Assembly (NCBI GenBank): GCA_030280995.1
Contig: JASXTE010000016.1
Location: 25,195,501 to 25,259,500 of the forward strand
Length of the DNA: 64,000 bases
Reading direction: 5' to 3'
Source: Hemileia vastatrix
Taxonomy: Eukaryota > Basidiomycota > Pucciniomycetes > Pucciniales > Zaghouaniaceae
Of this stretch, positions 1-56,852 are shown piece after piece. The notes under the pieces were generated by a model that was not told the DNA's origin, did not search any database, and was given only the letters and a program-made list of their open reading frames with translations. Both the position numbers and the translations under genes were made by a program. Positions within the stretch are counted from its first letter, which is position 1. Every line of letters begins with the position of its first letter.

Positions 1-3000
1 GTTAAACTGCAATTATCTCCTTCTATTATGGAGCTCCAGCAAGAGGGTAAACTGCAAAAATCTTATCAAAATCCAATAAAAAATCTCAGTATAATTAAAA
101 CACAAAAAAATAATTTTTGTGAAAATTCAATTCCGGTTCCCCAGCAAGAGGTTAAACTGCCGACTTTATTTACGGGTGATTTACTGTTGGATAAGGGAAG
201 CAAAGGTGTTGGAAAATCTGTTTATAAATTAGTAGAGGGAAAGGAGAAAAGGGTAAAATTTAAAAATGAAATAAAATATTTTTCTAATTTTTCTTATTCC
301 GATTCTGGCGATCAAGAAGATTCATTTGATGAAAGTTTTAATGGCAATACAAAAGAAAATGTTTTACCTCAAGTTTATTTAGATGTGGACGCAGCTAAAT
401 ATAAGAAAGTAGCAAATAAAGTTCGACCTATTAATGAACCTCTACCTGCTGAATTAAATCCACCTTTGAGAAGACCAAGGTTATCAAGAATTCCTTATGA
501 AAGTCCCTTGGTAAAGAATCTGCCTGAATTTTCTGTGACGTCAAGAATCACTTTTGAGAGACTGGGTGTTGTTAATTTTGGACCTGATGGTTGGTTGTCT
601 GGAGAAGAGAAGAAGTTGTTGTTGGATGTGATGGACAAGCGAGACAAGGCCATTGCTTTTGTAGAAGAGGAGAGGGGTGTGTTGAAGCATTCCTATGGGG
701 AGCCTTACAAGATTCCTGTGGTATGTCATGAACCGTGGCAGCAGAAACCGATTCCTATTCCGGCTGCATTGAAAGAAGCTTATATCGAAGTTGTCAGAGA
801 ACGGATACGCACTGGACTGTATGAGCAATCAACGTCAAGTTATTCTAGTCCGGTATTTTGTATCAAGAAACCGAATGGCAAGCTTAGAGTTGTTCATGAT
901 CTTAGGGAATTAAATAGGGTTACAATAAAGGATGCTGGGATACCGCCTAGTGCTGAGGAGTTTGTTGAAGCGTTTGCAGGGAGAGTGTGTTATGGATTGG
1001 GAGATATTATGGGTGGATATGATGAGAGAGAGTTACATCTGGACTCAAGGCCTCTCACTACATTCGATACGCCACTTGGACGTTTACAGTTAACAAGATT
1101 ACCTCAAGGAGCAACAAATTCGGTTGCAGTTTATCAAGCTCAGATGGCTTGGATCCTTCAAGACAAAATTCCACAATATGCTGGAATCTTTATAGATGAT
1201 GGAGGAATTAAGGGACCAACAACCGACTATGATAACCAGGTGTTGGAAGAGAATCCCGGGATACGCAAATTCATTTGGGAGTTTGCAATTACTTTAGAAA
1301 GAATCTTGTTTCGAATTGAAGAGGCTGGTTTAACTATTTCAGGTTCAAAATTTTCATGTTGTGTGCCAGCCTTAGAAATATTAGGCCATGTGGTATGTAG
1401 AGAGGGTAGGATTATGTCCAAGAAGAAATTTAACAAAATTCAGTCCTGGCCAAGACCCAAGAATACGACCGAAGTCAGAGGGTTTTTAGGCGTTTGCGTA
1501 TATGTTAGAATGTTTATCAAGGACTTTTCTTCATTGGCAGCTCCATTGAGACGGTTAACGAGAAAGGATTCAGACTGGGAGTGGGATGAAGAGTGTGAGA
1601 AGGCGTTTGTGAAGTTGAAGGAGGTTGTGGGGAAGGATTTAGTCCTGCGCAAGTTGGATTATGGAAAAGATGCTGGCAGAATTTATTTAGCAGTTGATTC
1701 AAGTCAGGGTGCAGCTGGGGCGGTTCTGTCTCAGATGGATAAAGCTGGTTACATCAGGCCAGTTAGGTATGAATCTGTAGTATTTACTGAGGTCGAATCA
1801 AGATATTCACAACCAAAATTGGAATTATGTGGTGTGGCGAAAATACTGAAGAAACTTCAGCATATTTTGTGGGGGCAACATTTTGAGTTGCAAGTGGATG
1901 CGAAATCGTTAATCCAGATGATTAATTCCCCAAGTTTACCGAATGCACTCAAGACGAGATGGGTAGCTTTTATTCAACATTTTTCTTTTGATTTAGTTCA
2001 TAAGCCTGGCAAAACTTTTACTATGCCAGATGGTTTATCAAGGAGACCACCCACTGAAGAAGATTCAGACTCAGAAGAGTTCGATGATGATATACCTATT
2101 ATCAAAGCCAGCACTAAAGGAGCTGAAGACTTTCCATACCTCCCCCATGAGGTTAAACTGGCAGGACTATTGTGTTTAGATTATGGTGTTGATGACCTCC
2201 ACCAAGAGGATAAACTGGAAAATAGTTTTTATGTTAATAAAGGTGTTGGAAAAGGTGTAGATAAATCCGGTAGAAAGGAGGTAGAAGAAGATGTGGTGTA
2301 TGTAGAGGAAGATGGATTGGTAGTGTGGGATAGTAGTAAATTAAGGAATGGTGTATATGTTGGAGAATTAGAGAATTTAAATAAAAGGGTGGATAAAGAG
2401 AAAGAGGTATTTTCAAATACGGTTTACGAAGGATCCAAAGGTTCAGAAGAAAAACGTCAACATAGCTCGATTAAAGATTTATTTAGGGGTCAAAAATTAT
2501 TGGCTCATTCATGTGCAGGTGATATTGGTAATAGAGAAGTCCCTATTGATGTTATATTAATTGATTTTCAAGATGAAGTTTGGGGTCAGACTGGTTTTTA
2601 TTTTTTGTTAGTCAAATATTTGTTGACTTTAGAGAGGCCAGAAGATTGTGAAGACGATGAATGGGTGGCTATCAAGAGGAAGTCATCTACTTTTTACCTA
2701 TCTGGTCGACGTTTAATGAGGAGAAGGTATCCAAATCCTCAAGTAGTTATAACTCAAGAGACGGGGCAAGAATTTGTTTTGAAATCACTGCATGAAGATC
2801 TCGGGCATAGAGGCGTTGGAGAAACGTTTAGAAGAAATTCTGATCGATTCTGGTGGCCTGGTATGAAGATGGCTGTTAAACAGTGGGTTAAGTCATGCGA
2901 AGAATGTCAAAGACGAAGTTATTTAAGGCCAAAAGAACCTGGACGTGCAACCGGTGAATATACGCTCTTTGGGAGAGTTAGTTTAGATGCCGTTCATATA

Positions 3001-3525
3001 AAAGAGGGATGGTATAAATATTTAATTGTGGCCAGAGATGATTTATCTGGTTGGGTAGAGGCAGGGCCTCTTATTAATTTAACTGCCAAAAATGTGGCAG
3101 AATTTTTTTTGAATAATTGGGTATATAGGTATCGGGTGATGAAGTTGGTAACGGTAGATGGAGGTCCTGAATTTGGGACAGAGTTTAAAGAGGCCGTATT
3201 GAAAGTTGGATCAAAGGTTAGGGTAGCAACCCCATATTATCCTGAAGCTGAAGGCATGGTTGAAAGAGGGCATCAAGTTATTAAGGATGCCTTAGTTAAA
3301 ATGTGTGGGACAAGTGCCGAAAAGTGGAGGCACTATTTACCTTTAGTTTTATTTGCTGATCGAATCACTGCCAAAAGGACGACCGGATTTTCACCTTATG
3401 AACTTGTTTTTGGACAGAAAGCAGTTTTACCGGTTGATTTAGAAGCTGAATCATATCTTGGAGTTGACTGGGACACGGTCAAAACTACTGAAGAATTATT
3501 GTGTGCAAGAATGATGCAGCTATAA
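1..3525 (+). CDS. Gypsy Pol polyprotein (RT, RNase H, integrase), 5'-partial, ends at an internal stop
   Basis: The frame is open to the left edge; the first ATG in view is at 28 but is probably not the real start. Numbering from that ATG: a charged linker to about residue 215; reverse transcriptase about 230-470 with FIDD at 388-391; RNase H from about 550 with first Asp 557; integrase zinc finger H922-X4-H927-X29-C957-X2-C960; integrase core D987, D1044, E1079 (D-34-E). All catalytic residues seen are present. The frame is closed by TAA at 3523-3525, but the same frame continues to 3852 with homologous protein, and GyA2 has a Glu codon at this place, so the stop is probably a disabling mutation. 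Four hairpin-TAAACTGG units lie in this frame and read as L-x-x-E-x-K-L peptides. Confidence 0.9.
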   Translation, partial: VKLQLSPSIMELQQEGKLQKSYQNPIKNLSIIKTQKNNFCENSIPVPQQEVKLPTLFTGDLLLDKGSKGVGKSVYKLVEGKEKRVKFKNEIKYFSNFSYSDSGDQEDSFDESFNGNTKENVLPQVYLDVDAAKYKKVANKVRPINEPLPAELNPPLRRPRLSRIPYESPLVKNLPEFSVTSRITFERLGVVNFGPDGWLSGEEKKLLLDVMDKRDKAIAFVEEERGVLKHSYGEPYKIPVVCHEPWQQKPIPIPAALKEAYIEVVRERIRTGLYEQSTSSYSSPVFCIKKPNGKLRVVHDLRELNRVTIKDAGIPPSAEEFVEAFAGRVCYGLGDIMGGYDERELHLDSRPLTTFDTPLGRLQLTRLPQGATNSVAVYQAQMAWILQDKIPQYAGIFIDDGGIKGPTTDYDNQVLEENPGIRKFIWEFAITLERILFRIEEAGLTISGSKFSCCVPALEILGHVVCREGRIMSKKKFNKIQSWPRPKNTTEVRGFLGVCVYVRMFIKDFSSLAAPLRRLTRKDSDWEWDEECEKAFVKLKEVVGKDLVLRKLDYGKDAGRIYLAVDSSQGAAGAVLSQMDKAGYIRPVRYESVVFTEVESRYSQPKLELCGVAKILKKLQHILWGQHFELQVDAKSLIQMINSPSLPNALKTRWVAFIQHFSFDLVHKPGKTFTMPDGLSRRPPTEEDSDSEEFDDDIPIIKASTKGAEDFPYLPHEVKLAGLLCLDYGVDDLHQEDKLENSFYVNKGVGKGVDKSGRKEVEEDVVYVEEDGLVVWDSSKLRNGVYVGELENLNKRVDKEKEVFSNTVYEGSKGSEEKRQHSSIKDLFRGQKLLAHSCAGDIGNREVPIDVILIDFQDEVWGQTGFYFLLVKYLLTLERPEDCEDDEWVAIKRKSSTFYLSGRRLMRRRYPNPQVVITQETGQEFVLKSLHEDLGHRGVGETFRRNSDRFWWPGMKMAVKQWVKSCEECQRRSYLRPKEPGRATGEYTLFGRVSLDAVHIKEGWYKYLIVARDDLSGWVEAGPLINLTAKNVAEFFLNNWVYRYRVMKLVTVDGGPEFGTEFKEAVLKVGSKVRVATPYYPEAEGMVERGHQVIKDALVKMCGTSAEKWRHYLPLVLFADRITAKRTTGFSPYELVFGQKAVLPVDLEAESYLGVDWDTVKTTEELLCARMMQL

Positions 3526-3852
3526 AAGAAAGAAGAATATCTAGAAAAGGCATATTCACGGATGATGAAGATCCAAAATCAATCAGTCAGATATTGGGAT
3601 GAGCGGTTGGCACATCGATTAAGGAAACCTTTGAACCCAGGTGATATGGTCCTGGTGTATAATAGGAGTTTGGAAAGTCAGTGGGGAAAGATGTTTGCAG
3701 ATAGGTGGAATGGACCGTATAAAATCAAGGAGCAAGTTTCCGGCAGTTCATATGTGCTAGAAGAGTTGGATGGAGTAGTATTGAAGAAGAGGGTAGCAGC
3801 CAATCAAGTGAAACGGTTCTATCCTAGAGGCACCAGGAGTGCCAAAGTCTAA
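3526..3852 (+). pseudogene. C-terminal end of GyA1 integrase, cut off by an in-frame stop
   Basis: This is the same reading frame as the Pol ORF, reopened after TAA 3523-3525, with an internal ATG at 3562. It encodes the integrase C-terminal region with a GPY/F-type module (RWNGPYKI around 3706-3729). GyA2 carries the homologous segment at 48554-48829 and there has stops at different positions, so the ancestral gene read through. Without readthrough the GyA1 integrase lacks about 109 C-terminal residues. Confidence 0.85.
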
Positions 3853-4017
3853 CTCCGAAATGAGGATAAACTACAATTTTAATGACTTTTATTAAATTTA
3901 TACCTCCGCAATGAGGATAAACTATGATATCGACGAAATTTTATGGATTCCTCCGCAATGAGGATAAAATATGATGTTTATAAAAATCTTATCGACCTCC
4001 GCAACGAGGATAAAATA
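3853..4017 (+). repeat. Four tandem CCTC/GAGG hairpin-TAAACT units at the pol stop
   Basis: Four units start at 3853, 3903, 3950 and 3996 with spacing of about 45-50 bp. Each reads CTC, loop CGCAAT or a variant, GAGG, A, then TAAACTA or the weaker TAAAATA. The first unit overlaps the pol stop codon region; GyA2 keeps the homologous unit at the same place (48497-48519). Confidence 0.85.
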
Positions 4018-4344
4018 TCTTCTTTTTTTATCAAAATACTTTACTATCGTTACATTGTATATGGTCGACGAAACTATGATGGAATTTAACGAAATTCAAG
4101 AAGACCTTCTTTGAAATTTTCAAAAACTTAAAATTCTTTAAATATGGGTGAAGATAGTGTTGGAAAAAATTTTTTAAAAATTTATTGGAAGAAGTGTTCA
4201 CAGGGGAACCTTCTTAATTTAATATTGGCAAGTGTGGGGGTAATTGATGGGCTGGCTGCTCTATACATAATTACCCCATAATGTTCGTTTCCAAAATTTT
4301 CCCTGTTTCTAGTTGAATCCTGGCTTTGTCTTTTAATTTTAGGA

Positions 4345-4367
4345 AGTCCACTAAGACTATAAACTGG
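4345..4367 (+). repeat. Single AGTC/GACT hairpin-TAAACTGG unit
   Basis: Stem AGTC 4345-4348, loop CACTAA, stem GACT 4355-4358, then A and TAAACTGG 4360-4367. It lies downstream of a conserved segment (about 4230-4320) that GyA2 carries twice, at about 47540-47620 and 48300-48390; the GyA2 homologues of this unit are at 47444-47466 and 48211-48235. Confidence 0.8.
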
Positions 4368-4489
4368 AACGAATCAAGAGACACCGCTCTCAACGCCGGA
4401 TTCAAGATTATTTTATTTTATTTTGTTTTTGATTTTTTTTATGTTAGATTGTGATTTCTTTTCTTTAATATATATTATGAATTATTGTA

Positions 4490-4650
4490 AAGGTGATGCT
4501 CACTGGTGGTCTCTAATCATTTTTATAAATTGGAGGGAGCCCACCCAGTGATCATCATTATAAAAATTATCTTCTAAAAAACTTTCATTTATTTTATTTT
4601 CTTTTCAATTTCTTAAAATTGTGTAACCACATCAAGTTGCACTTGGATGT
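4490..4650 (+). other. Two conserved stem-loops in the GyA1 3' noncoding region
   Basis: Imperfect inverted arms of about 20 bp at 4492-4512 and 4533-4556 (TGATGCTCACTGG against CCAGTGATCATCA) enclose an AT-rich loop. A second inverted pair, CCACATCAAG at 4627-4636 and CTTGGATGTGG at 4642-4652, follows. Both are retained in GyA2 (about 48065-48130 and 47860-47890) although the surrounding DNA has diverged, so they may be structured RNA elements. No ORF is present here. Confidence 0.55.
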
Positions 4651-5114: not shown

Positions 5115-5883
5115 TAGTCCTCCAAGACTATAAACTGGCTACTGTTCATAACGTTCTTTAAGGTTTTTTATACGTATTTTGGATCTGTTAGTCCTCCAAG
5201 ACTTTAAACTGGCTACTGTTCAAGACTTTCCTTAAGGGTTTTATACAAATTTTGGAGCTGTTTGTCCTCCAAGACTTTAAACTGGCTAATTTTCAAGACT
5301 GTCATTAAAGATTTTATATTGGAGCTGTTAGTCCTTCAAGACTTTAAACTGAATTTCAAGGATAATCAAGATTTTATGGATATTTTTGGAGACGGATTTT
5401 TTTTATCAATCAAATGATAGGTCCACCAAGACCTTAAACTGGAGTTTTATCATATGTTAGGTCCACCAAGACCTTAAACTGGACTATTATCAAGCTGTTG
5501 GGTCCACCATGACCTTAAAATGGATTTCTTATCGATCAAATGTTTGGTCCACCATGACTTTAAACTGGTATTTCATTCATTGTTTAGTCCACTATGACTT
5601 TAAACTGGAAAATTAATTTCTGCAGGATAATTCAACATTCATTGGTCCACTATGACATTAAACTGGATTATCAAGTTTATTCAATCTTTGGTCAAGCCTA
5701 GGCCTTACTTAGGAATATTTCAAGTTATTCATGCACTTAAAAGATCTTTGGTCCACCAAGACCATAAACTGGCAATCGATTATATGTTTGGTCTACCAAG
5801 ACTTTAAATTGGAATGTCAATCTTGTTTGGATAACTCAATTCAGTCTTTTAATTTATCACTGTCCACTAAGACTCTAAACTGG
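5115..5883 (+). repeat. Array of 13 hairpin-TAAACTGG units
   Basis: Units start at 5115, 5190, 5263, 5330, 5419, 5459, 5501, 5546, 5586, 5644, 5750, 5790 and 5861. Each is 22-24 nt: a 4-5 bp stem, a 6-nt loop of type CWCCAA or CACTAT, one spacer base and TAAACTGG. Stems change as pairs: AGTC/GACT in some units, GGTC or AGGTC with GACC or GACCT in others. Spacers between units are unrelated in sequence and 20-80 nt long, so this is not a simple tandem duplication. Confidence 0.9.
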
Positions 5884-6539: not shown

Positions 6540-6549
6540 GGAGGGAGGA
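6540..6549 (+). promoter_or_regulatory. Polypurine tract of GyA1
   Basis: GGAGGGAGGA directly abuts the LTR start TGTGG. GyA2 has GGAGGAAGGA at the same place. This is the expected plus-strand priming site. Confidence 0.85.
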
Positions 6550-7649
6550 TGTGGTAGCCTAAAGTTTAGTATGGCACCTAAGTACGTAAATGGAGTTTTT
6601 ACGGTGTGCAAGATTGGTGTTATTATTTTTTTATATATAAAAGGGTTTTATTTAATTTATTTGAGTTTTAAATATGAAGAAATTTGTCACAAGCGAATGG
6701 CTACATGAAAACAATTTATTTTACAGAGAAAACTTATTTTTACGGTCTGAAAAATTTATAAGTATCAAGTCGAGTCACTCAAGAACCTTGGGAAATTTTC
6801 CCAGAATTTTTACTATTTTTCTTATATTTTTAAATGAATTTTAAAGTTTTATAGAAATATTTACATTTTCAGAAATTACTTAACTTTGATGAATTTTCAC
6901 GGGGTAATTAGAGCTGCGCAGACTACGAAAATTAGTTTTATATGTAAAGGGGAAGTAGCTCTATTATGTTTAATTTTTCTAGATTTTTTATTATAGTTTT
7001 AAGGTTCTAATTGAGTCCGGAAGTCCGGACGGACTCCGTATGGACTCCGTACGGGCTCCGGATTGACTCTGGGAGAGCTCTGGAGGGGAAAACTTAGGCA
7101 CGTGACTAGGAATACTTAAGAGCATCTCAAACTCGAGATTGAGGGGGGGGATACATCATACAGCTTAATCATTGACCACCACGGTCTCATTTTTTATTAC
7201 TCAACAAATTAAATAAATTTGTAATACCCTTATAACTTTATATTTTATATATAACATTTTAGAAATACTACTCAACAATTTAAATCACACTTCATACAGG
7301 GTATCTTTAGAAAGGTCTTCATCGCTGGGACTTGATTATTGCTGTCTCATAAAAATTCAAATTATTATAAAAACATAAAAGTCAATCTTTTCAGATCTTT
7401 CACTGGTACACCTTAATTGTTGTTATCAGTATTTCTTTCTCAACAGCCACTTTCTTTAAATCTCAATAAGTGTTAATTATTTTAGAGTTTCATTATTTTT
7501 ATCAATCAGATCCAAGTAGATTGGTTAGCTTAGTGATTTAGAATTCCCATTTTGTTATTTTTATTCGAAGGACGGGGTTTTCAGCTAAATCCACATATCT
7601 CCTCCGGATTCTGCTTACAGCAAGGCGACTGTAAGAGTTTACCTTACCA
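6550..7649 (+). repeat. 3' LTR of GyA1 (1100 bp)
   Basis: Starts TGTGGTAGCC after the polypurine tract and ends TTACCTTACCA. Its last 40 bases (GGATTCTGCTTACAGCAAGG and following) match the ends of the GyA2-family LTRs, fixing the boundary. A diverged relative is the split solo LTR at 15479-17962. Short ORFs inside are not credible. Confidence 0.85.
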
Positions 7650-7772
7650 TAGCGAGTACACAAAGGAAAATCACAGTTGCTATGGAGAATTGCTTTCTAC
7701 GCTTCAAGTATGGATTTAGACCTCTGTATTATTGATTTGATGAGCTGCTTTTGCCTTGAGTGTCACGTGGCG
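7650..7772. repeat. 120-bp direct repeat, left copy
   Basis: Begins at the last base of the GyA1 LTR with TAGCGAGTACACAAAGG and ends near CTTGAGTGTCACGTGG. A copy about 92% identical lies at 15354-15478, where it abuts another LTR on its other side. Several differences are CG versus CA. Nature unknown; possibly a remnant of a GyD LTR or of a host repeat. Confidence 0.75.
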
Positions 7773-8869: not shown

Positions 8870-9700
8870 AATGAAAAGAGAAAAGAAAAGAAAGAAAAGA
8901 AAAGTAAAAAACAATTTGTATTTAGTAATTTTATTTTGTTGTTTTATGAAAATTTTAATATTTTATTTTTTTATAAGATTTTGGGAGAAAAAAAGAAAAG
9001 ACAGAAAAAAGATTTAAATAGAATTTTGTTTTAAAATTTTGAAAGAAGAAGTTTAAATGAGAGAGGAAAAGACTGAATATTTAATTGAAGGAGTTTTAGT
9101 TTCAAAGTTCAAAAAGAAAAAGAATTAAGTAAGAAGAAAGAAAGAAAGAAAATAGAAATAATTGATTGAAATAATTGTGTTGTAAAATAAAATTTAATGA
9201 AAAGAAACAATTTGTTATTTATAAAAGTTTTTTAATTGAATATTTGAGGAATTTAGTTATTTGAAAAAAGAAAAGAAAGAAAAGAAGAGAAGAAATAATT
9301 TTTTTTTAAAGAGTTTTGAAAGAAAAGAAGTAATTTTTTCGAAGGATTTAAAAAAGAGATTTAGTGGTTAAAGTGAATTTGGAGAAGAATTTTGATAGTT
9401 TGAGGAAAAGAAAATTTTAAAGAAAGAATGTATTTAGAAAATTCAGAAGGAAAAAAGAAAAAGAAGTAAATTTTTAAAAGAAAAAGATTTTAATTTTATT
9501 TGTTTTATTTTATTTTATTTTAATTTGGTTTTATTTTATTTTATTTTATTTATTTTAATTTAATTCAATTTTATTTATTTATTTATTTTAATTTGAATTT
9601 TATTTCATTTTATTCTATTTCAATTTAATTTTATTATTTTAGATTTTAAAAAGAAGAAAAGAAGAGAGAAGAAAGAGAAAAAAAAGAGAAAGAAAAAATA
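8870..9700. repeat. Purine-rich and T-rich low-complexity DNA
   Basis: About 830 bp of AAAGAAAAG-type plus-strand purine runs, with a TTTTATTTTATT stretch at 9480-9640 and almost no C. No ORF or terminal repeat recognised. It fills the place where the 3' LTR of GyD would be expected. Confidence 0.8.
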
Positions 9701-9710
9701 AAAGAGGGTT

Positions 9711-10528
9711 TTAAGGTTTTGGTTTTAAAGGATATTTAAGTTGATAAGATTTTAGGAGTTCAGGGGCGTTAGAAACATTGATGGCTGGTTCCCAGGATGT
9801 TTTTTCTGAGTCATTGAGGAAGCCTTCCCATTCCACGAGGTATTGAAGTTTCCCCTCGCGGTTTCTTGAATCAAGGATACCGCTTACTTCCCACTCTAGA
9901 TGGTCTTCTAATTCGACCGGTTCCGGAGGAGGTTGGTTCTTGCACAGGTATATTTCTTAAGCCAGTTCCAGAAGAGATACGTGAAAAAAAGGTGAATAGC
10001 CTGCCATTTAGGAGGTATCTTGAGTCGAAATGCAGTTTTAGAGACTTCAGAGTCAATTTCAAATGGCCCCAAGCTTTTTTCAGCCAGTTTCATTGATGGT
10101 CGAGTCTTTCGAATGTTTTGTGCGTTGAGCCATACTTTGTCGCCTGGTTTAAAAGAAGGAGAAGTTTGTCGATGTTTGTCTGCCTGTTCCTTGTGCCTTC
10201 GAACCGCTAATTCAAAATTTGATTTAAGTTCCTCTTGGAGTCGTGATATGGTTCGAAGATAATTTTCCGCAGGATGATTAGTTCCTACATGGATTGAGTT
10301 GAATCGAGGATGTCTTCCATAAACAGTTTCGAAAGGAGATTGTTGTGTCTAAGATTGAGTCGAGTTATTATAAGCAAATTCGGCCAATGGTAACCATGTG
10401 GTCCAATTGTCTTGTTGGTAACTGACATACATTCGAAGATATGGTTCAAGGATTTGGTTGACCCTTTCCGTTTGCCCATCGGTTTCAGTTTGATAAGCTG
10501 TGGAGAGGTTCTTCGTGATATTGAGTTG
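9711..10528 (-). pseudogene. GyD integrase C-terminus with chromodomain
   Basis: From about 10510 the minus strand reads the end of the integrase core ([12 protein letters not shown]) in a shifted frame, then a GPY/F-like region near 10020-10100. From about 9925 to TAA 9711-9713 it reads a chromodomain (LEWEVSGILDSR, YLVEWEGF, SWEPA). Frame changes separate the parts. Chromodomains of this class guide integration to particular chromatin; here it is a relic. Confidence 0.8.
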
Positions 10529-15946: not shown

Positions 15947-17358
15947 TGTAGAGTAGACTCCTACAGTCACCTTGCTGCAGGCAGAATCCAAGGGAGTTGG
16001 AAAAACAAAAAGAAGTCCCTGTACCTCTAATTAAATGTAAGATTCAATTAACTATGCTTTAAGATCTGCTTGAAGAGTAGGATAAGTTGAAAATCTGAGA
16101 GAAAGACTTTGAAAATGTTGGAAACCTATAATATAGGAAAAAAAAATAAGTGCAATAAATTATTACACCCTCAAAACAAATACCTTATACCAGATTAAAC
16201 TGATAAAAGTCACAGCAAATACTTAGAAAAAGCCGCAACACTTGCCCCAGAGACTGAAAATTACAGTAAAGTACCCCAGAAACTACACTTGGGATGATCT
16301 GTTCAAAGGTGCCTTATTAAGGGTCTGCCCCAGATTTACCCAGTTTCCCACCAAAATTAAAGAGTGTTCTTTATTATATTTTTATTTTATAAATTTTATA
16401 AGAAAATAAAATAAATTTGAGTCACCAAGGATGAGAGCTATCTAATGGTAACCTATATGTTGATATTTTTTATTATAATTGTTGTTATATGTTAAATATT
16501 TTTAATTATCAAAAAAGACCCTTATTATCAAAACTAAAAGACAAAAAACATGTAGAAGACTAAGATTCTCCCCCCCATATGATTCTCCTGTTCCAGAAAT
16601 TTCCAACAATACCCTACATGCATATGGTCTACAATAAACTATTGATCTAGTAAGCATAATAACTTTCTAACCAAATTTCGCCACAATAGCCAAACTTTTG
16701 GCACAGTGACCAAACTTTGCACTGGTGATCAGACTTTTCTTCAGTGACCAAACTTTGCCACAGTTCCCAGACATTTCTGCAGTGACCAAACTTGGCACTG
16801 GTGATCAGACTTTTCTACAGTGACCAAACTTTGCCACAGTGCCCAGACTTTTCTGCAGTGACAAAACTTTGCACTGGTGATCAGACTTTTCTACAGTGAC
16901 CAAACTTTTCCACAGTACCCAGACTTTTCTGCAGTGACCAAACTTTGCAAAAGTGCCTAGAATTTTCTGCAGCAATGACCAAACTTTGCCACAATGACCA
17001 ACTTCGCCACAGTGACTTTGCTTTTGAACTGGAAAATCACTGGAGCAAACCGGAGCGCACTGGAAAAAAATGGCTAATCCATGAGTACACTGCATCCAAC
17101 AAAAATACTAAGAGAGCCCTAGAAAATCCAGTAAAACCAAAACCCAATCCATGAAACCATCAAATAACAATAGGAATATCAACATATATCTATTCCAAAA
17201 AACCATAAATCCTCCAAAAAATCACCATAAATCCACCCAAAAAAAACCCAGTTAACTCCTTTCAACAAAATTAACACCTGCTAACACCATTATTTTCTTC
17301 CAACCAAGGTCCAATCAAATTTTCACCTAAGTAGCCTACCCAGATTTGGAATGCCACA
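15947..17358 (-). repeat. Solo LTR of the GyA2 family (1412 bp)
   Basis: TGTAGAGTAGACTCC at 15947 to GAATGCCACA at 17358 matches the two GyA2 LTRs (45616-46977 and 55455-56852) end to end. Flanking 4-mers are CCAT and CCGT, a possible 4-bp target duplication with one CG-to-CA change. It lies inside the GyA1-type solo LTR and is therefore younger than it. Confidence 0.88.
16690..17010. repeat. LTR-internal tandem repeat: 76-bp unit built of 19-bp subunits
   Basis: Alternating CAGTGACCAAACTTTGC, CTGGTGATCAGACTTTTCT, CAGTGCCCAGACTTTTCTG words recur with a 76-bp higher-order period. Shorter versions occur at about 46340-46480 and 56195-56400, explaining most of the LTR length differences in the family. 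Cys/Lys-rich minus-strand ORFs here are by-products of the repeat. Confidence 0.82.
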
Positions 17359-43589: not shown

Positions 43590-44300
43590 CCAACCTCACC
43601 CCCCTCCCCCCCTCATCCCCCTATCCCCTCAACCACTTCCTCCCCTCCCCCCCTACCACCTTATTGCTTTCCACCCTCTCCCCCCTCCCCCCTTATCCCT
43701 TTCCCCTCTCCTCCCTTTCCTCTCACCCTGCCTCCATCCCCCTTTTATCCCTAAACAAATCACTTAGAGATTTTTTAGGGATTAAATGGGGGAGGGGGGA
43801 AGGGATAAGGGGAGAGGGGAGAGGGGAGAGGGGAGAGGGGAGAGGGGAGAGGGGAGAGGGGAGAGGGGAGAGGGGAGAGGGGAGAGGGGAGAGGGGAGAG
43901 GGGAGAGGGGAGAGGGGAGAGGGGAGAGGGGAGAGGGGAGAGGGGAGAGGGGAGAGGGGAGAGGGGAGAGGGGAGAGGGGAGAGGGGAGAGGGGAGAGGG
44001 GAGAGGGGAGAGGGGAGAGGGGAGAGGGGAGAGGGGAGAGGGGAGAGGGGAGAGGGAGGGGGGAGAGAGGGGGAAGGGGGAGAAGTGGTGGAGGGAAGAG
44101 GGGGATGAGGGGGGGGGAAACAGGTGAGGTGGTATGAAGGAGGGAAAAGAGGTGTCTGAAGGAGGAAAAAGGTGCCTCAAGGGGGGAAAGGGGAGGAGGA
44201 ACTGATGAAAAAAGGGGGGTAAGGGAATTTGAGGAGATCAAGAAGGGTAAGGGAAGATTTGAGGACACCAAAAAGAAGGAAATGAGGCAGACAAGGAGGG
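43590..44300. repeat. C/T-rich block followed by G/A-rich block with (GGGGAGA)n
   Basis: 43590-43745 is nearly all pyrimidine (CCCCTCC, CCCCCTT), and 43785-44300 nearly all purine. 43802-44057 is an almost pure array of about 36 GGGGAGA units. ATCCCTAAA (43748-43756) and TTTAGGGAT (about 43775-43783) form a stem between the blocks. The long RGEGRGE and [13 protein letters not shown]s in both directions are artefacts of the repeat. Confidence 0.95.
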
Positions 44301-45615: not shown

Positions 45616-46977
45616 TGTAGAGTAGACTCCTACAGTTTCCTTGCTGCAGGCAGAATCCAAGGGAGTTGGAAAAACAAAAAGAAATCCCTGCACCGCTAAT
45701 TAAACGTAAGATTCAATTAACTATGCTTTAAGATCTGCTTGAAGAGTTGGATAAGTTGAAAATATGAGAAAAAGAATTTGAAAGTGTTGGAAACCTATAA
45801 TATAGGAAAAAAAAATAGGTGCAATAAATGATTACACCCCCAAAAAAAATACCTTATACCAGATTACACTGATACAAGTCACAGCAAATACTTAGAACAA
45901 GCCGCAACACTTGCCCCAGAGACTGAAAATTACAGTAAAGTACCCCAGAAACTACACTTGGGATGATCTGTTCAAAGGTGCCTTATTAAGGGTCTGCCCC
46001 AGATTTACCCAGTTTCCCACCAAAATTAAAGAGTGTTCTTTATTATATTTTTATTTTATAAATTTTATAAGAAAAGAAATAAATTTGAGTCACCAAGGAT
46101 GAGAGCAATCCAATGGTACCCTATATGTTGATATTTTTTATTATAATTGTTGTTATATGTTATATATTAATAATTATCAAAAAGACCCTTGTTATTGAGA
46201 CTAAAAGACAAAAGAAATGTAGAAGACTAAGATTCCCCCCTCTCTATCTGATTTTCCTCCTCCAGAACTTTCCAACAATACCCTACATGCATAGGATCTA
46301 CAATAAACTATTGATCTAACAAGCATGATTAATTCTAATCAAATTTTGCCACAATAGCCAAATTTTTCTGCAGTGACCAAACTTTTCACTGGTGATAAGA
46401 CTTTTCTACAGTGACCAAGCTTTACCACAGTGCCCAGACTTTTCTGCAGTGACCAAACTTTGCACTGGTTATCAGACTTTCCCATTGTGAGAAAATTTTG
46501 CCACAATGAGCTCTTTTTGCCATAATGAGCTAATTTGGCCAGAGTGAGTTAATCTTTTCACCATAACCAAACTTTTCCACAATGACAGAATTTTTCCAGT
46601 ACACTTCGCTTTTGCACCAGAAAATGACCGGAGCACACCGGAAAAAAATGGCTACTCCATGAGCACACTGCATCCACCAAAAATACCAAGAGAGCCCTAT
46701 AAAATCCAGTAAAACCAATACCCAATCCATGAAACCATCAAATAACAATGGAATACCAACATATATCCATTCTAAAACACCATAAATCCTCAAAAAAATC
46801 ACCTTAAATCCTGCAAAAATCACCATACATCCTCCAAAATTCACCATAAATCCACCCAGAAAAAATCCAGTTAACTCCCTTCAACAAAATTAACACCTGC
46901 CAACACCATTATTTTCTTCCAACCAAGATCCAATCAAATTTTCACCTAAGTAGCCTACCCAGATTTGGAATGCCACA
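45616..46977 (-). repeat. 3' LTR of GyA2 (1362 bp)
   Basis: TGTAGAGTAGACTCC to AATGCCACA. Matches 55455-56852 and 15947-17358. Contains a short version of the 76-bp VNTR (about 46340-46480). Confidence 0.93.
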
Positions 46978-46987: not shown

Positions 46988-48515
46988 AATATGGAATGTC
47001 CCCATTCCATTCTGAATCACATAAAAAATTTTTCCACCATCATTTCAATAAAAATTTTACTTTTAAAGTTGACTCCACTTGATTTTTGATGCTTCAATCT
47101 GCTGAGTATGAAAGATTAGGCTTTAAACCCTACTGAGCTAGAACTGCAAGGATCTAGACACCACCATGAGGTCCTCCAAACTCCTCTACCATTCACCTTC
47201 AACAAATAAGAAAATTAAGAGAGTGAGATTTCATCTCCACTGATTCAGAACTGCAATGATCTGGACATCGCCATGAGGTCCTCCAATTTCCAAAATCACC
47301 AACTACAGAAAAGAAAATTTAAAGAGTGGGCTTTCATCTCCACTGAGCCAGAACTGCAATAATCTGGACATTGCCATGAGGTCCTCCGATTTCCAAAAAC
47401 GACCTCCACTTGAATTTTCTTGAGTCATCAAGCTCAAAAATCACCAGTTTATAGTCTTAGAGGACTTCCACCTGCATCACAAAACCAATGCTAGAGATCA
47501 ATCTATAAACAATAAAGCATATAAAAAAACTTTTTGGGGTAATTGTGTATAGAGTTGCCAACTCATCAACTACCCCCAAACTTTCCAATATATAATCTAG
47601 AAGGTTCCCCAATGAAAACTTCTAACTAAAAGAAATCCTCCTCAAATCTTGACCATTATAATTCCTAGTTTTATTGACATCTTCAGTTTTCCGCGGTCCT
47701 GAAGTTTAGGACCAATCATAAATGATCTTGAAAAAAATTTCAGTTTTAAGTCTTGATGGACTAGCAGAATGAAAAAAAAATAAATATATAATAAAAGAAA
47801 AAGATAAATAAAAAAATAAAAGATGTACCCCAGCCATTTAGATGAGACGAACCCCTGACATCATACCCACATCCAAGTGCAACTTGATTGTGGATACACA
47901 GGAAAGAAAATTTTAAAATATGCCATAAAATGAAATTTTTGAAAACAAATTATTTTTGAAAATAATAATTTTTTTTTTGAAAATATTTTTTTTTTTTTAA
48001 ATTAAATTTTGAAAATTAGAAGATTTGAAAAATGATCATTTAATGAAAATCAAGGAAACAAAATAATGATCACTGGGTGGGCTCCCTCAAATTTGTAAAA
48101 ATGATTGAAGACCACAAGTGATCATCCACCCCAATACAACAAAAAAATGAAACAAAACAAAATTCTTGAATCCAGACATCCAAAAGTTTGTGCTGTGTCA
48201 ACACTAGGCTCCAGTTTATAGTCATAGAGGACTACCTATATAACAAAAAACAAAGCCAGGATTCATCTAGAAACAGAGAAGGGTTGGAAACAAACTTTGT
48301 GGGGTAATTGTGAATAGAGCTGCCAACTCATCAATTACCCCCAAACTTGCCAATATAAAATCTAGAAGGTTCCCCTGTGAACACTTGTAACATAATTCAT
48401 TTTCCCCTCTTATTTTCACCACATAATAAAATTTTAAAATTGAAGTAATGATTGATTTTTCGAAAGACAGTGAGATTTCCTAAACGATTTATGTTGTAGT
48501 TTATCCTCATTTCTG
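46988..48515 (-). other. GyA2 3' noncoding region with several repeat families
   Basis: No gene. Contains three ~95-bp repeats with GAACTGCAATGATCTGGAC...CCATGAGGTCCTCC (about 47145, 47235, 47330); a duplicated segment with GGGGTAATTGTG and CTAGAAGGTTCCCC (about 47470-47620 and 48230-48390); hairpin-TAAACTGG units at 47444-47466, 48211-48235 and 48497-48519; and the two stem-loops conserved with GyA1 (about 47860-47890, 48065-48130). Confidence 0.75.
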
Positions 48516-51500
48516 AGTCAAACTTCAGCACTATTTGTTCCCCTAGGGTAAAACTACTTCACTTGATCAGCAGCTACCCTCTTATTTAAGACAACACCAT
48601 CCAATTCTTCCAAAACATATGAACCACCAGAAACCTGTTCTCTAATCCTATATGGTCCATTCCATCTATCAGCAAACATTTTCCCCCACTGACTTACCAA
48701 ACTCCTATTATACACCAACACCATATCACCAGGCCTCAAAGGCTTCCTGAGTCTATGAGCCAACCTTTGATACCAATACCTGACACATTGATCCCTGATC
48801 TTGATCATCCTATCGTATGCCTTCTCCAAATAATCCTCCTTCTTTTCTAACTGTTACATTCTAGCACAGAGCAAATCTTCAGTAGTTTTGACTACATCCT
48901 AATCAACACCAAGATAAGATTCAGCTTCAAGATCAACCAGTAAAGCAGCTTTCTGACCAAAAACTAATTCATAGGGAGAATAACCAGTTGTCCTCTTGGT
49001 GGTAATCCTGTCATCAAATAAAACAAGGGGTAAAATATGCCTCCACTTTTCAGCACTTTTTCCACACATTTTAACCAAAGCATCCTTAATAAGTTGATTC
49101 CCCCTTTTAACCATTCCTTCTGCTTCAGAATAATATGGGGTTGCCACCCTAACCTTTGAGCCAATTTTTGAAACAGGTTCCTTGAAGTCCGCACCAAACT
49201 TGGAGCCACCATCAACAGTTACCAACTTCATAACACCATACCTATACACCCATTCCTCCATCAAAAATTCTGCTACATTTTTAGCAGATAAACTAATAAG
49301 AGGGACAGCCTCAACCCAACCAGACAAATCATCCCTTGCCACAATAAAGTACTTATATTTACCTTCCTTGATGTGAACAGAATCCAAACTAACCCGTCCA
49401 AAGATAGTATTTTAACCAGTAGCATTTCCAGGTTCTTTTGGCCTTAAATAACTTCTTCTCTGACATTCTTCACATGACTGAACCCAAGATCTAACAGCCA
49501 TCTTCATTCCACGCAACCAAAATCTATCAGCAATCCGCTTATAAGTTTCTCCAAAGCCCCTATGCTCTAAATCTTCATGAAGAGATTTCATCACCAATTC
49601 TTGACCTTTTCTTTGAGATACAACAACTTGAGGATTCAGATGTCTTCTTTTCATCAACATTCTATCAGACAAACAAAAACCAGGTGACTTCTTTTTGATA
49701 GCCACCCATTCAGCTTCATCACATTCTTCTGGTTTTCCCAGAGACAACAAATATTTCACCATTAAAAAATAAAACCCAGTCTGGCCCCAAATTTCATCAG
49801 AAAAATCCAATAATATAACATCCAAAGGAACCTCCCTGTCACCAATATCTCCCAATTTTGAATAATCAATCATTCTCTGAGCATTCCGCTGTTTGCTGAA
49901 ATTCACATAATACACCTCATTCAAAAATTTTTGCATGCTACCACTATCCTCCTTCAGATCCCAAACATAAACACCATTAACCAACTTCCAATTATCCCAA
50001 ACAACCACACAATCCTCATCTAAAAAAACCTCATGATCAACTAGATCATCAACTTCATCAAATTCAACAAAAATAGAGCCAGCCAGCTTAACCTCATGGG
50101 GGAGGTATGGAAAGTCCTCAGCACCCTTGGTACTGGCCTTGATTATAGGTATATCTTCATCAAACTCTTCTGAATTGGAATCATCTACTGTAGGTGGTCT
50201 TCTTGACAATCCATCAGGCATAGTGAAAGATTTTCCAGGCCTGTGCACTAAATTGAATGAAAAATGTTGAATAAAAGCTACCCACCTAGTCATTGGAGCA
50301 TTAGGTAAAATAGGTGAATTAATCATCTGAATTAAAGATTTAGAATCCACTTGAAGTTCAAAATGTTGACCCCATAAGATATTTTTAAGTTTCTTTAAAA
50401 TTTTTCCCACACCACAGAGTTCCAACTTTGGTTGTGAATATATTGATTCCACCTCAGTAAAAACTACAGATTCATACCTAAATGTTCTAATATAACCACC
50501 CTTATCCATCTGAGAAAGCACTGCACCAGCAGCCAGCTGACTAGAGTCAACAGCTAAATAAATCCTACTAGCTCCTTCACCATAATCCAACTTATGAAGA
50601 ATAATATCTTCACCAACCACCTTCTTCAACTTAACAAAATCTTCTTCACAAGCTTCATCCCAATCACAATCAGCATCCTTCCTAGTTAATCTTCTCAATG
50701 GAGCAGCCAATAACCAGAAATCCCTAATAATCATCCTAACATAAACACATACTCCCAAAAATCCTCTAACTTCAGTAGTGTTTCTAGGTCTCGGCCAAGA
50801 TTGAATTTTTTTGAATTTCTTCTTTGACATAATTTGGCCTTCCCTACACACCACATGACCAAGAATCTCTAAAGCTGGAACACAAAAAGAATATTTAGAA
50901 CCGGAAATAGTTAAACCAGCTTCTTAAATCCTAAACAACATCCTTTCGAAAGTTAATGCATACTCCCAAATAAACCTCCTAATACCTGGCTTCTCCCCCA
51001 ACACTTCATTATCATAATCATTTTAAGGACCTTTAATTCCACCATCATCAATAAATATACCAGCATACTGTGGAATTTCATCTTGAAGAATCCAAGCCAT
51101 TTGTGCTTGATAAATAGCAACAGAATTATTAGCACCTTGAGGTAATCTAGTCAGCTGTAACTTTCCAAGAGGAGTATCAAAAGTTGTCAGAGGTCTTGAA
51201 TCCGGATGTAATTCTCTTTCATCATAGCCCCCCATAATATCACCCAAACCATAACATACCCTACCAGAAAAATCATCAACAAATTCCTCTTCACTTGGAG
51301 GAATACCAGCATCTTTTATAGTCACCCTATTCAATTCCCTAAGATCATGAACAACTCTAAGCTTTCCATTAGGCTTCTTGATACAAGAAACTGGACTTGA
51401 AAAACTTGATGATGATTGTTCATAAAGTCCAGTCCTAATCCTTTCCCTAACAACTTCAATATAATCATCTTTAAGAGCAGCAGGAATCGGAATTGGCTTG

Positions 51501-52596
51501 AGTTGCAAAGGTTCATGACAAAAAACTGGAATCTTGTAAGGTTCACCATAAGAATGCTTTAAAACACCCCTCTCTTTTTCCAAAAATACAATAGCCTTCT
51601 CCCTCAGCACCATCAAATCCAACAACAAGTTCATCTCCTCACCAGATAACCAACCCTCTGGCCCAAAATTTACAACACCAATCCTATCAAAAGTAATTCT
51701 TGACGTTTCAGAAAATTAAGGCGGATTCTTTCTTAAAGGAGTTTAATATGGATCTCTTGAAAAAAGTGGTCTCTTCATCGGCGGATTCAATCTAGTTGGC
51801 AGCGCTTCATTAATTGGTTTAACTTTCACAGCAACCTTCTTATATTTTGCCGCTTCCACTTCCACGTGTACTTGAGGAATTGAGCTCTTTCATCAACAGA
51901 ATCTTCATCTTCATCAGAATTAAGAGTAACAGAATTTTTACAAAAAGAATTATTAGAATCAGATAAAGAAATTTTATCTGTTTTATTTTTATTTTTATTT
52001 TTTTGAAAAAGAATTATTAAAGTTTTTATAAACAGAATTATTGGAATTTTCAAAAATATTGTTATCTATTTTTTCATTATGCAGAAAATTTTTAATTTGA
52101 TTTTTACTTTTAGAAAGAAGAAAAGAATAATCAAAAGTATGAAAAGTTGGCAGTTTATCCTCATGCAGGAGGTTAACAGCATGCCAAGTAGGCTCAGACC
52201 TATTTACAATATCTTTACATAAATAATTTTTATTTTATTTTCATTTTTCTTGAGATTTTTTTCTTTATTTTTGTCAAATTGTTTCTTGCTATTCCTAGAA
52301 AAACAACCAGGGGTGTCCCCAATGCTCACATGTGTGGCCGTGGTAATGTTTTTGAAAGGTGTAGAAGAAACACTAGTGGTGCACAATTTGGAGGACTTAC
52401 TTTTAGACCCATTTTCCACCACTCCAAATCTTTTCTGCTCCAACAAAATTTTCCCTAAAACATCTTCAGAACTTGAAATAAATTTGAGAGAAAAACTTGA
52501 AGAAAAACTGAAGCCAGACAAATAATTTGACGAAAATTGACATAATAAAGTAATATTATCTACAAAAAGTTGAGATTCCACTTGATATATCTCCAC
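48516..52596 (-). pseudogene. GyA2 pol (RT, RNase H, integrase), many stops
   Basis: Homologous throughout to the GyA1 Pol. RT N-terminal half 51634-51023 with FIDDGG near 51045; RT end, RNase H and integrase zinc finger 50854-49412 (HEDLEHRG, CEECQRR); integrase core 49387-48899; C-terminal GPY/F part 48829-48554. Breaks visible include stops at about 51718, 51021, 50923, 49412, 48899, 48854 and 48554. The first zinc-finger H-X4-H survives but the second catalytic region reads VDGGSKFG. Carries hairpin-TAAACTGG units at 50084-50106 and 52150-52172. Upstream (52173-52596) is a low-complexity linker. Confidence 0.88.
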
Positions 52597-55454: not shown

Positions 55455-56852
55455 TGTAGAGTAGACTCCTACAGTCGCCTTGCTGCAGGCATAATCCAAG
55501 GGAGTTGGAAAAACAAAAAGAAATCCCTGTCCCTCTAAGTAAACGTAAGATTCAATTAAATAAGCTTGAAGATCTGCTTGAAGAGTTGGATAAGTTGAAA
55601 ATCTGAGAAAAAGAATTTGAAAGTGTTGGAAACCTATAATATAGTAAAAAAACATAAGTGCAATAAATGATTACAACCCCAAAACAAATACCTTATACCA
55701 GATTACACTGATACAAGTCACAGCAAATACTTAGAACAAGCCGCAACACTTGCCCCAGAGACTGAAAAGCACAGTAAAGTACCCCAGAAACTACCCTTGG
55801 GATGATCTGTTCAAAGGTGCCTTATTAAAGGTCTGCCCCAGATTTACCCAGTTTCCCACCAAAATTAAAGAGTGTTCTTTATTATATTTTTATTTTATAA
55901 ATTTTATAAGAAAAGAAATAAATTTGAGTCACCAAGGATGAGAGCAATCCAATGGTACCCTATATGTTGATATTTTTTATTATAATTGTTGTTATATGTT
56001 AAATATTAATAATTATCAAAAAGACCCTTGTTATCGAAACTAAAAGACAAAAGACATATAGAAGACTAATATTCCACACTCTCTATCTGATTCTCCTCCT
56101 TCAGACCTTTCCAACAATACCCTACATGCATAGGATCTACAATAAACTATTGATCTAACAAGCATGATAAATTCTAACCAAAATTTGCAACAATAGTTAA
56201 ATTTTTCTGCAGTGACCAAACTTTGCACTGGTGATCAGAATTTTCTACAGTGACCAAACTTTACCACAGTGCCCAGACTTTTCTGCAGTGACCAAACTTT
56301 GCACTGGTGATCAGACTTTTCTACAGTGACCAAAATTTACCACAGTGCCCAGACTTTTCTGCAGTGACCAAACTTTGCACTGGTGATAAGACTTTTCCAT
56401 TGTGAGCAAATTTTGCCAAAATGAGCTAATTTGGCCAGAGTGAGTTAATCTTTTCACCATAACCAAACTTTTCCACAATGACAGAATTTTTTCAGTACAC
56501 TTTGCTTTTGCACCGGAAAAAAATGGCTACTCCATGAGCACACTGCATCCACCAAAAATACCAAGAGAGCCCTAGAAAATCCAGTAAAACCAATACCCAA
56601 TCCATGAAACCATCAAATAACAATGGAATACCAACATATATCCATTCCAAAACACCATAAATCCTCCAAAAAATTACCATAAATCCTCCAAAAATCACCA
56701 TAAATCCTCCAAAATTCACCATAAATCCACCCAAAAAAAATCCAGTTAACTCCCTTCAACCAAATTAACACCTGCTTACACCATGATTTTCTTCCAACTA
56801 AGGTCCAATCAAATTTTCACCTAAGTAGCCTACCCAGATTTTGAATGCCACA
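55455..56852 (-). repeat. 5' LTR of GyA2 (1398 bp)
   Basis: TGTAGAG...GAATGCCACA in plus orientation; ORFs within are repeat-derived. VNTR part at about 56195-56400. Confidence 0.93.

Follow-up and report, generated by a model that had tools for sequence, protein, structure and literature searches.

Recurrent 24-nt units in a Ty3/Gypsy retrotransposon lineage of the rust fungus Hemileia vastatrix show paired evolution consistent with a minimal RNA pseudoknot

Luteovirus-type mini pseudoknots have a first stem (S1) of ~5 bp, a first loop (L1) of 2 nt starting with C, a second stem (S2) of 3 bp, a 1-nt junction and an A-rich last loop. The dispersed signals of single-stranded RNA (ssRNA) viruses are stem-loops with a known partner, which present a shared motif on variable stems; the small knots of tobamoviruses and foot-and-mouth disease virus (FMDV) are few per genome, and the repeats of plant long terminal repeat (LTR) retrotransposons are located in the 3' untranslated region (3'UTR). 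Solved structures of the luteovirus type include those of beet western yellows virus (BWYV), potato leafroll virus (PLRV), pea enation mosaic virus-1 (PEMV-1) and sugarcane yellow leaf virus (ScYLV) (PMC3835772), and multiple dispersed packaging signals on one RNA are described as promoting assembly in many ssRNA viruses (Twarock and Stockley; PMC6281560). Consecutive small pseudoknots are reported from untranslated regions, in the tobamovirus upstream domain and the FMDV 5'UTR (PMC4683447, PMC3094298), tandem repeats in plant LTR retrotransposons are presented as sources of satellite DNA (PMC7004042), and the selection of its own RNA by an LTR retrotransposon is described as imprecisely defined even in yeast (PMC4974528). 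Here we analyse a window of 64,000 nucleotides from Hemileia vastatrix (contig C531, positions 25195501-25259500, of a 747.6-Mb host genome in 791 contigs, which was searched as a whole) with two related Ty3/Gypsy elements, GyA1 on the plus strand and GyA2, a broken relative, on the minus strand, and the short units repeated within both.

An earlier note, made from the letters of the window, had described these units as a hairpin followed by a nearly constant single-stranded tail. When the units were read side by side, loop positions 3-5 proved to be the reverse complement of the final three tail letters, in the loop/tail forms CCA/TGG, GCA/TGC, TCA/TGA and, by a U-G pair, CTA/TGG. The end of the tail is thus not constant but varies together with the loop, and for the main type of unit (type A) the hairpin-and-tail architecture has to be given up in favour of one with a second helix, which had been overlooked. 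The type A unit is very probably a minimal H-type RNA pseudoknot, predicted for the sense RNA of GyA-lineage elements, in which an S1 of 4 bp, an L1 of 2 nt (the first nearly always C), an S2 of 3 bp, a junction that is nearly always A or U and a third loop (L3) of NUAAAC would follow one another. The window holds 28 units, 22 in GyA1 (18 type A, 4 type B) and six in GyA2 (5 type A, 1 type B), and S2 is fully paired in 23/23 type A units and in 0/5 of type B. All four S1 pairs form in 18/23 type A units and at least three in 23/23; in type B, 3/5 have four.

In its stem and loop dimensions the predicted fold resembles the luteovirus-type knots, likewise very short and of H-type. Those act once, after a slippery site, whereas GyA elements carry up to ~20 units, mostly untranslated and none seen with a slippery site. 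A role as ribosomal recoding pseudoknots (-1 frameshift or readthrough), which the similarity in size to luteovirus frameshift pseudoknots might recommend, is far-fetched, for most GyA1 units are not translated and no X XXY YYZ heptamer was found by eye 5-9 nt upstream of the four units in pol.

All 22 units reported earlier for GyA1 were located (13 at 5115-5883, four at 3851-4018, one at 4344-4367 and four in pol), as were the five of GyA2, to which a sixth is now added at 47740-47763 (-). The single stem mismatches noted at 5263 and 5644 were recovered as outer S1 pairs. The units are as follows (RT, reverse transcriptase).

32-55 (+), type A, before RT in pol, GCA/TGC, outer S1 pair mismatched
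137-160 (+), type A, before RT in pol, GCA/TGC, one S1 mismatch
2138-2161 (+), type A, pol linker between RNase H and integrase, CCA/TGG
2195-2218 (+), type A, pol linker between RNase H and integrase, CCA/TGG
3851-3874 (+), type B (S1 only), near the end of the pol-like reading
3902-3925 (+), type B
3949-3972 (+), type B
3995-4018 (+), type B
4344-4367 (+), type A, downstream of a conserved folded domain in the 3'UTR, CTA/TGG
5115-5138 (+), type A, array unit 1, CCA/TGG
5189-5212 (+), type A, array unit 2, CCA/TGG
5262-5285 (+), type A, array unit 3, CCA/TGG, outer S1 pair T-T
5329-5352 (+), type A, array unit 4, TCA/TGA (CCA/TGG in the aligned units of L064 and C2:611k)
5419-5442 (+), type A, array unit 5, CCA/TGG
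5459-5482 (+), type A, array unit 6, CCA/TGG
5500-5523 (+), type A, array unit 7, CCA/TGG, TAAAA variant
5545-5568 (+), type A, array unit 8, CCA/TGG
5585-5608 (+), type A, array unit 9, CTA/TGG
5643-5666 (+), type A, array unit 10, CTA/TGG, outer S1 pair G-A
5749-5772 (+), type A, array unit 11, CCA/TGG
5789-5812 (+), type A, array unit 12, CCA/TGG, TAAAT variant
5860-5883 (+), type A, array unit 13, CTA/TGG, outer S1 pair T-T
47444-47467 (-), GyA2 type A, CTA/TGG
47740-47763 (-), GyA2 type A, TCA/TGA, AAAAC variant, absent from the earlier note
48211-48234 (-), GyA2 type A, CTA/TGG
48496-48519 (-), GyA2 type B
50083-50106 (-), GyA2 type A, pol linker, CCA/TGG, TAAGC variant
52150-52173 (-), GyA2 type A, before RT, GCA/TGC

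Pairing was assessed on units collected from the window, from 30 search loci (themselves obtained with a search using the tail TGG) and from 20 sampled 10-kb stretches, the collection using only the inner TC..GA and TAAAC and being blind to S2 and to S1 pairs 3-5. Among the resulting 74 distinct units S1 pair 3 is paired in 70 (34.3 expected), as G-C in 34 and as C-G in 33; across the genome the mispaired G-G form with YYA/TGG, the one mispairing counted at this position, occurs 101 times as compared with 61,487 CCA/TGG and CTA/TGG units. S1 pair 4 is paired in 52/74 (31.3 expected). A fifth pair, which would make the stem the 4-5 bp previously given, forms in 22/74 units with 32.7 expected and is unsupported, and S1 is therefore taken as 4 bp. 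In S2 the outer pair is formed in 55/74 units (32.4 expected), the middle pair in 47/74 (39.9 expected) and the inner pair in 68/74 (65.3 expected); a further S2 pair, which would join loop position 6 to tail letter 5, was rejected, being formed in 0/53.

For the alignment 53 distinct units were used, leaving aside 17 of the 74 with A at loop position 4 (type B and the like) and four loose matches (TCATAT, TTTGCA twice and TTTTCA). In this set 93.5% of cells are paired (76.0 ± 1.5 shuffled). The covariation score reaches 0.426 (0.147 ± 0.019 shuffled), and sliding the partner by 1-3 columns lowers pairing to 21-40%. The outer S2 pair holds within each S1 class (19/20 units with 9.8 expected, and 29/33 with 26.0 expected; p 0.0016) and is hence not a by-product of there being two S1 families. 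Two interleaved helices with paired changes, as in an H-type pseudoknot, are what the units present, the support within S2 being carried by the outer pair. Run on three 3'UTR pieces, RNAalifold assigned some of the tail to another, outer pairing, whereas the S2 register is the one that the permutation and slide tests prefer.

A descriptor in which the stem letters are free (S1 4 bp, S2 3 bp, TAAAC) found 11 units on the sense strand of GyA1 and 0 on its antisense strand, where 300 dinucleotide shuffles gave 0.027 on average; TAAACTGG occurs 15 times with 3.13 expected. In the 20 sampled 10-kb stretches (200 kb) the same descriptor had 20 matches, 19 of them in GyA pol or GyA 3'UTR in seven stretches (L060, L061, L063, L064, L065, L066 and L070), and all 19 lie in the sense orientation of the element. 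The remaining match (L075) has an A/T stem and follows the integrase of a different Gypsy element by ~3.3 kb. No further descriptor match was found in the stretches where the sole Gypsy RT shares 25-31% identity with that of GyA1 (L059, L062, L068, L069, L072, L075 and L077). Within this sample the units are restricted to one lineage.

Genome-wide counts were made on both strands with the pattern TC-NN-loop-N-GA-NNN-TAAAC-tail for eight chosen loop/tail combinations, reversed-pattern controls giving 0 or 1 per strand. CCA/TGG occurs 39,896 times, CTA/TGG (U-G wobble) 21,591, GCA/TGC 19,516, TCA/TGA 13,604, CCA/TGA 13,629 and CCA/TAG 490, and the mispaired cross combinations CCA/TGC and GCA/TGG occur 152 and 147 times. 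Mispairing thus affects 299 of the 59,711 units that combine C or G at loop position 3 with G or C as the last tail letter, and the three standard S2 pairs are present in 94,607 of the 109,025 units of the eight counts, although the copies are related and these numbers are non-independent events. A search that set the tail to TGG and left loop positions 2-4 free had 34,359 matches; the 100 listed, which come from a single contig, all carry C at position 3, whilst position 4 is C in 75 and T in 25, and position 2 varies.

These counts bear on the view that the unit acts as DNA, as a palindromic protein site, a cruciform or a duplication-prone repeat. The unit is indeed palindromic and its array partly tandem-duplicated, but the half-sites vary in a paired fashion, unlike a fixed DNA recognition site, and all 19 sampled GyA matches are oriented with the transcript. 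Moreover, at the middle S2 pair, the one for which this comparison was made, the wobble that sense RNA tolerates is frequent, whereas the antisense equivalent is seldom seen (CTA/TGG 21,591 vs CCA/TAG 490). A DNA-level site is therefore very improbable.

The units also outlast the sequence between them. Between diverged copies (the window or C2:479k vs L064 or C2:611k) identity is 0.88-0.92 in units and 0.62-0.64 in spacers, and between C2:611k and L064 it is 0.85 and 0.72, the spacers thus changing faster. Array unit 4, aligned across copies, reads CTCCAA..TGG in L064 and C2:611k and CTTCAA..TGA in the window and C2:479k. The statement that the spacers are unrelated is partly in error: units 1-4 lie in a 73-nt tandem period and units 5-9 in a 40-nt period, where spacers are shared. 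Origin of all units by recent tandem duplication with shared spacers, which the earlier note had named as grounds for abandoning its proposal, therefore applies to part of the array only; between diverged copies the units persist longer than the spacers, and units are also found, out of tandem, in pol. That the units are a neutral by-product of such duplication, as the two periods and the uniformity of close copies would allow, is the least probable of the explanations considered. Taken together, the pairing tests, descriptor, spacer comparison and genome counts support well the proposal of a selected sense-strand RNA structure in a retroelement.

A number of observations weigh against the pseudoknot and the use proposed for it below. 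Two of five measures on the 53 units are no better than in shuffles (both-side-change pairs 4 vs 3.9, further pair types 10 vs 9.9), by permutation the middle S2 pair (p 0.085) and the inner pair (p 1.0; it hardly varies) add little, and S1 pair 4 is weak within the S1 classes (p 0.089 and 0.024). The stability, estimated roughly with a stacking table, is modest, with mean stacks of -6.8 kcal/mol for S1 and -3.8 kcal/mol for S2 before any pseudoknot penalty. The change in the tail of array unit 4 is accompanied by a 4-base gap and does not amount to two plain substitutions, and close copies (the window vs C2:479k) show no unit-spacer difference (0.97 in units, 0.95 in spacers). CCA/TGA, in which the outer pair would be C-A, equals TCA/TGA in frequency (13,629 vs 13,604). 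A G directly follows the tail in 12,632/13,629 CCA/TGA units vs 778/13,604 TCA/TGA units, so that a C-G pair can re-form with the A bulged out, or the helix can continue if loop positions 1-2 are C; such a rescue of CCA/TGAG fits a pseudoknot but requires the bulge as an added assumption, and it was conceived after three local copies (L052) had shown the G.

Two groups of units lack a full S2. L076, a more diverged GyA relative (69% RT identity), has four units, placed after RNase H and after integrase, and 0/4 have a full S2. Type B units, 5/28 in the window, keep S1 and TAAAC without S2; they lie about where pol ends, at 3851-4018 (+) and 48496-48519 (-) and also in L060, L061, L066 and L070, and their tails mostly end in TAC or TAT, loop position 3 tracking the tail ending without pairing (A goes with C, and C with T). 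A second type is thus formed by the single unit at 48496-48519 and the four at 3851-4018, which were counted before with the others. Together with the prediction of the hairpin alone in 13 of the 14 units listed in the stability estimate, such S1-only units speak for a hairpin with a linear tail, in which S1 is selected and the loop and tail letters are a mere sequence motif. For type A this is improbable, as loop position 3 and the last tail letter covary both genome-wide and within each S1 class.

The carrier has RT, RNase H and integrase in the order of a Ty3/Gypsy LTR retrotransposon, together with LTRs, and the main unit array of GyA1 sits between pol and the 3' LTR.

28-3525 (+), open frame found for GyA1 pol, with RT, RNase H and the integrase zinc domain
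6549-7652 (+), GyA1 3' LTR, approximate; the same stretch occurs in L061, L063 and L073 at 90-94%

Resemblance to GyA2 pol extends past the stop of the GyA1 frame (3525) to about 3850-3880. Comparison with other species was made at the protein level, where a 300-aa RT piece of GyA1 had its best named matches mostly in Austropuccinia psidii. A scan of viral contigs gave no relatives by protein and, by pattern, 27 stretches with one match each, below a rough hand estimate of chance; other genome contigs yielded none by protein or pattern scan, and plasmids none. One protein filed under Xanthomonas sp. A2111 (P0121), which has the linker-unit peptide, shares 98% identity with GyA1 across 43% of the query; that bacterial assembly therefore probably contains rust DNA. 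In L064 a direct repeat (2455-2990 and 9466-10000, 96% over 536 nt) flanks another Gypsy element that adjoins a GyA 3'UTR. To judge from these repeats the other element is probably a nested insertion, and a chimera, with a GyA 3'UTR behind a 25%-identical pol, was dropped as the less likely account.

As the four pol units of GyA1 share one reading frame, they could owe their conservation to a peptide motif, [LP]xxExKL, under protein selection, with the 3' copies as remnants. This is hardly credible, since 18/22 GyA1 units (14/18 of type A) lie after the pol reading, and the loose motif occurs in 12/177 pol relatives, P0121 being the only one to have it among the ten linkers displayed (the other 11 matches were not individually placed).

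The constant parts of the unit (the first loop C, UAAAC and the shape of the knot) might be read by one RNA-binding partner at many places, and the array would thereby act as a multivalent recognition platform, with avidity provided by up to about 20 copies per element in pol linkers and 3'UTR. Multivalent recognition of this sort is somewhat favoured. The role suggested in the earlier note, a protein- or primer-binding array, is plausible, although no sign of a primer function emerged here. The likeliest partner would be the element's own Gag, a single CCHC knuckle (CX2CX4HX4C) being found at the gag position of GyA in L061 and L066 and, interrupted by a stop, in the GyA2 copy, and the likeliest use would be the choosing of genomic RNA for retrosomes or particles; packaging by Gag in particular we offer tentatively. 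The best explanation overall is that the pseudoknot units would provide the genomic RNA with a platform for multivalent recognition, Gag being the likeliest reader and packaging the likeliest purpose, an explanation to which we would assign a probability of about 0.5.

Like the dispersed signals of ssRNA viruses, GyA carries many copies of a shared motif on variable stems along one RNA (23 type A units in the two elements). Those signals are stem-loops whose partner is known, whereas the GyA motif is a predicted pseudoknot, more uniform, with a putative partner. Ty1 offers a retrotransposon RNA knot preferentially contacted by Gag (PMC8396678, PMC4974528), and Ty1 Gag is reported to prefer RNA with an intact pseudoknot in in vitro competition (PMC8396678); the Ty1 pseudoknot differs from the GyA units in being single, long-range and at the 5' end of a Ty1/copia-type element. 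Two points also count against the Gag proposal: in Ty1 a role of the pseudoknot in packaging is given as not demonstrable, point mutations having left packaging unchanged (PMC4974528), and at least one other element (L061:9349, plus strand) has a CCHC knuckle but no units. Nor do the units occupy the usual location of a packaging signal near the 5' end of the genomic RNA: in L061 a scan from the end of the 5' LTR (7288) to 4242, ~3 kb, was without units, the first of which appear ~0.9 kb before RT.

The main functional rival to packaging accepts the pseudoknots and makes the array a 3'UTR element for stability, translation or export, read by host factors. The position of 18/22 GyA1 units after pol suits it, as does the tobacco mosaic virus (TMV) upstream pseudoknot domain, said to act in both replication and translation (PMC4683447), yet units also occur within pol, where it is hard to see what a 3'UTR element would do, and we regard it as unlikely, though less so than the other alternatives. 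In a bolder form of the platform reading, GyA elements may use a written RNA code, one small pseudoknot reused up to ~20 times in linkers and the 3'UTR and read multivalently by a dedicated protein that tells element from host RNA, a suggestion we make with reserve. It could then, equally tentatively, be what dispersed packaging signals are in viruses, but in a retrotransposon and with pseudoknots as its elements.

The fold itself is of a known kind; the number and placement of its copies look new. The tobamovirus and FMDV knots belong to RNA viruses and are not reused in coding linkers, whereas GyA units stand in pol linkers too, and the plant LTR retrotransposon repeats, similar in that the GyA array lies between pol and the 3' LTR, are not described as covarying RNA structures. 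The top-ranked results of the literature searched gave no repeated pseudoknot array in an LTR retrotransposon, the one paper to mention pseudoknots, rust fungi and retrotransposons together being on a Lichtheimia genome, with a single mention of each. A scan of the 64-kb window with Rfam 15 gave 0 matches at gathering score. With >100,000 natural copies of a 24-nt unit in one genome, in several paired forms, a ready variant set for a minimal pseudoknot is at hand, and both fold and reader are addressable with short synthetic RNAs. The unit is also a marker of a single Gypsy lineage that has expanded in a rust fungus, and an RNA code, if true, would perhaps be one reason for the large copy number of the GyA lineage.

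Other features of the 3'UTR and window were observed. The 3'UTR contains a conserved folded domain that has a 10-bp GGGGUAAUUG stem; it lies immediately 5' of a unit in GyA1 (4190-4343, +) and is present twice in GyA2 (48235-48392 and 47468-47625, -); RNAalifold over the three sequences, units included, gave -31.6 kcal/mol. A long hairpin lies in the GyA1 3'UTR at 4483-4565 (+), with a similar stretch, by eye, in GyA2; it is not a unit, and its assignment to an Rfam family was rejected, the single match, to mir-764 (E 0.87), being weak and at chance level. LTRs of the GyA2 type (16670-17016, 46341-46585 and 56203-56418) contain 19-bp and 38-bp tandem repeats whose copy number differs between LTR copies. 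Finally, ~40 copies of a GGGGAGA repeat at 43789-44067 are G-rich enough for G-quadruplexes.
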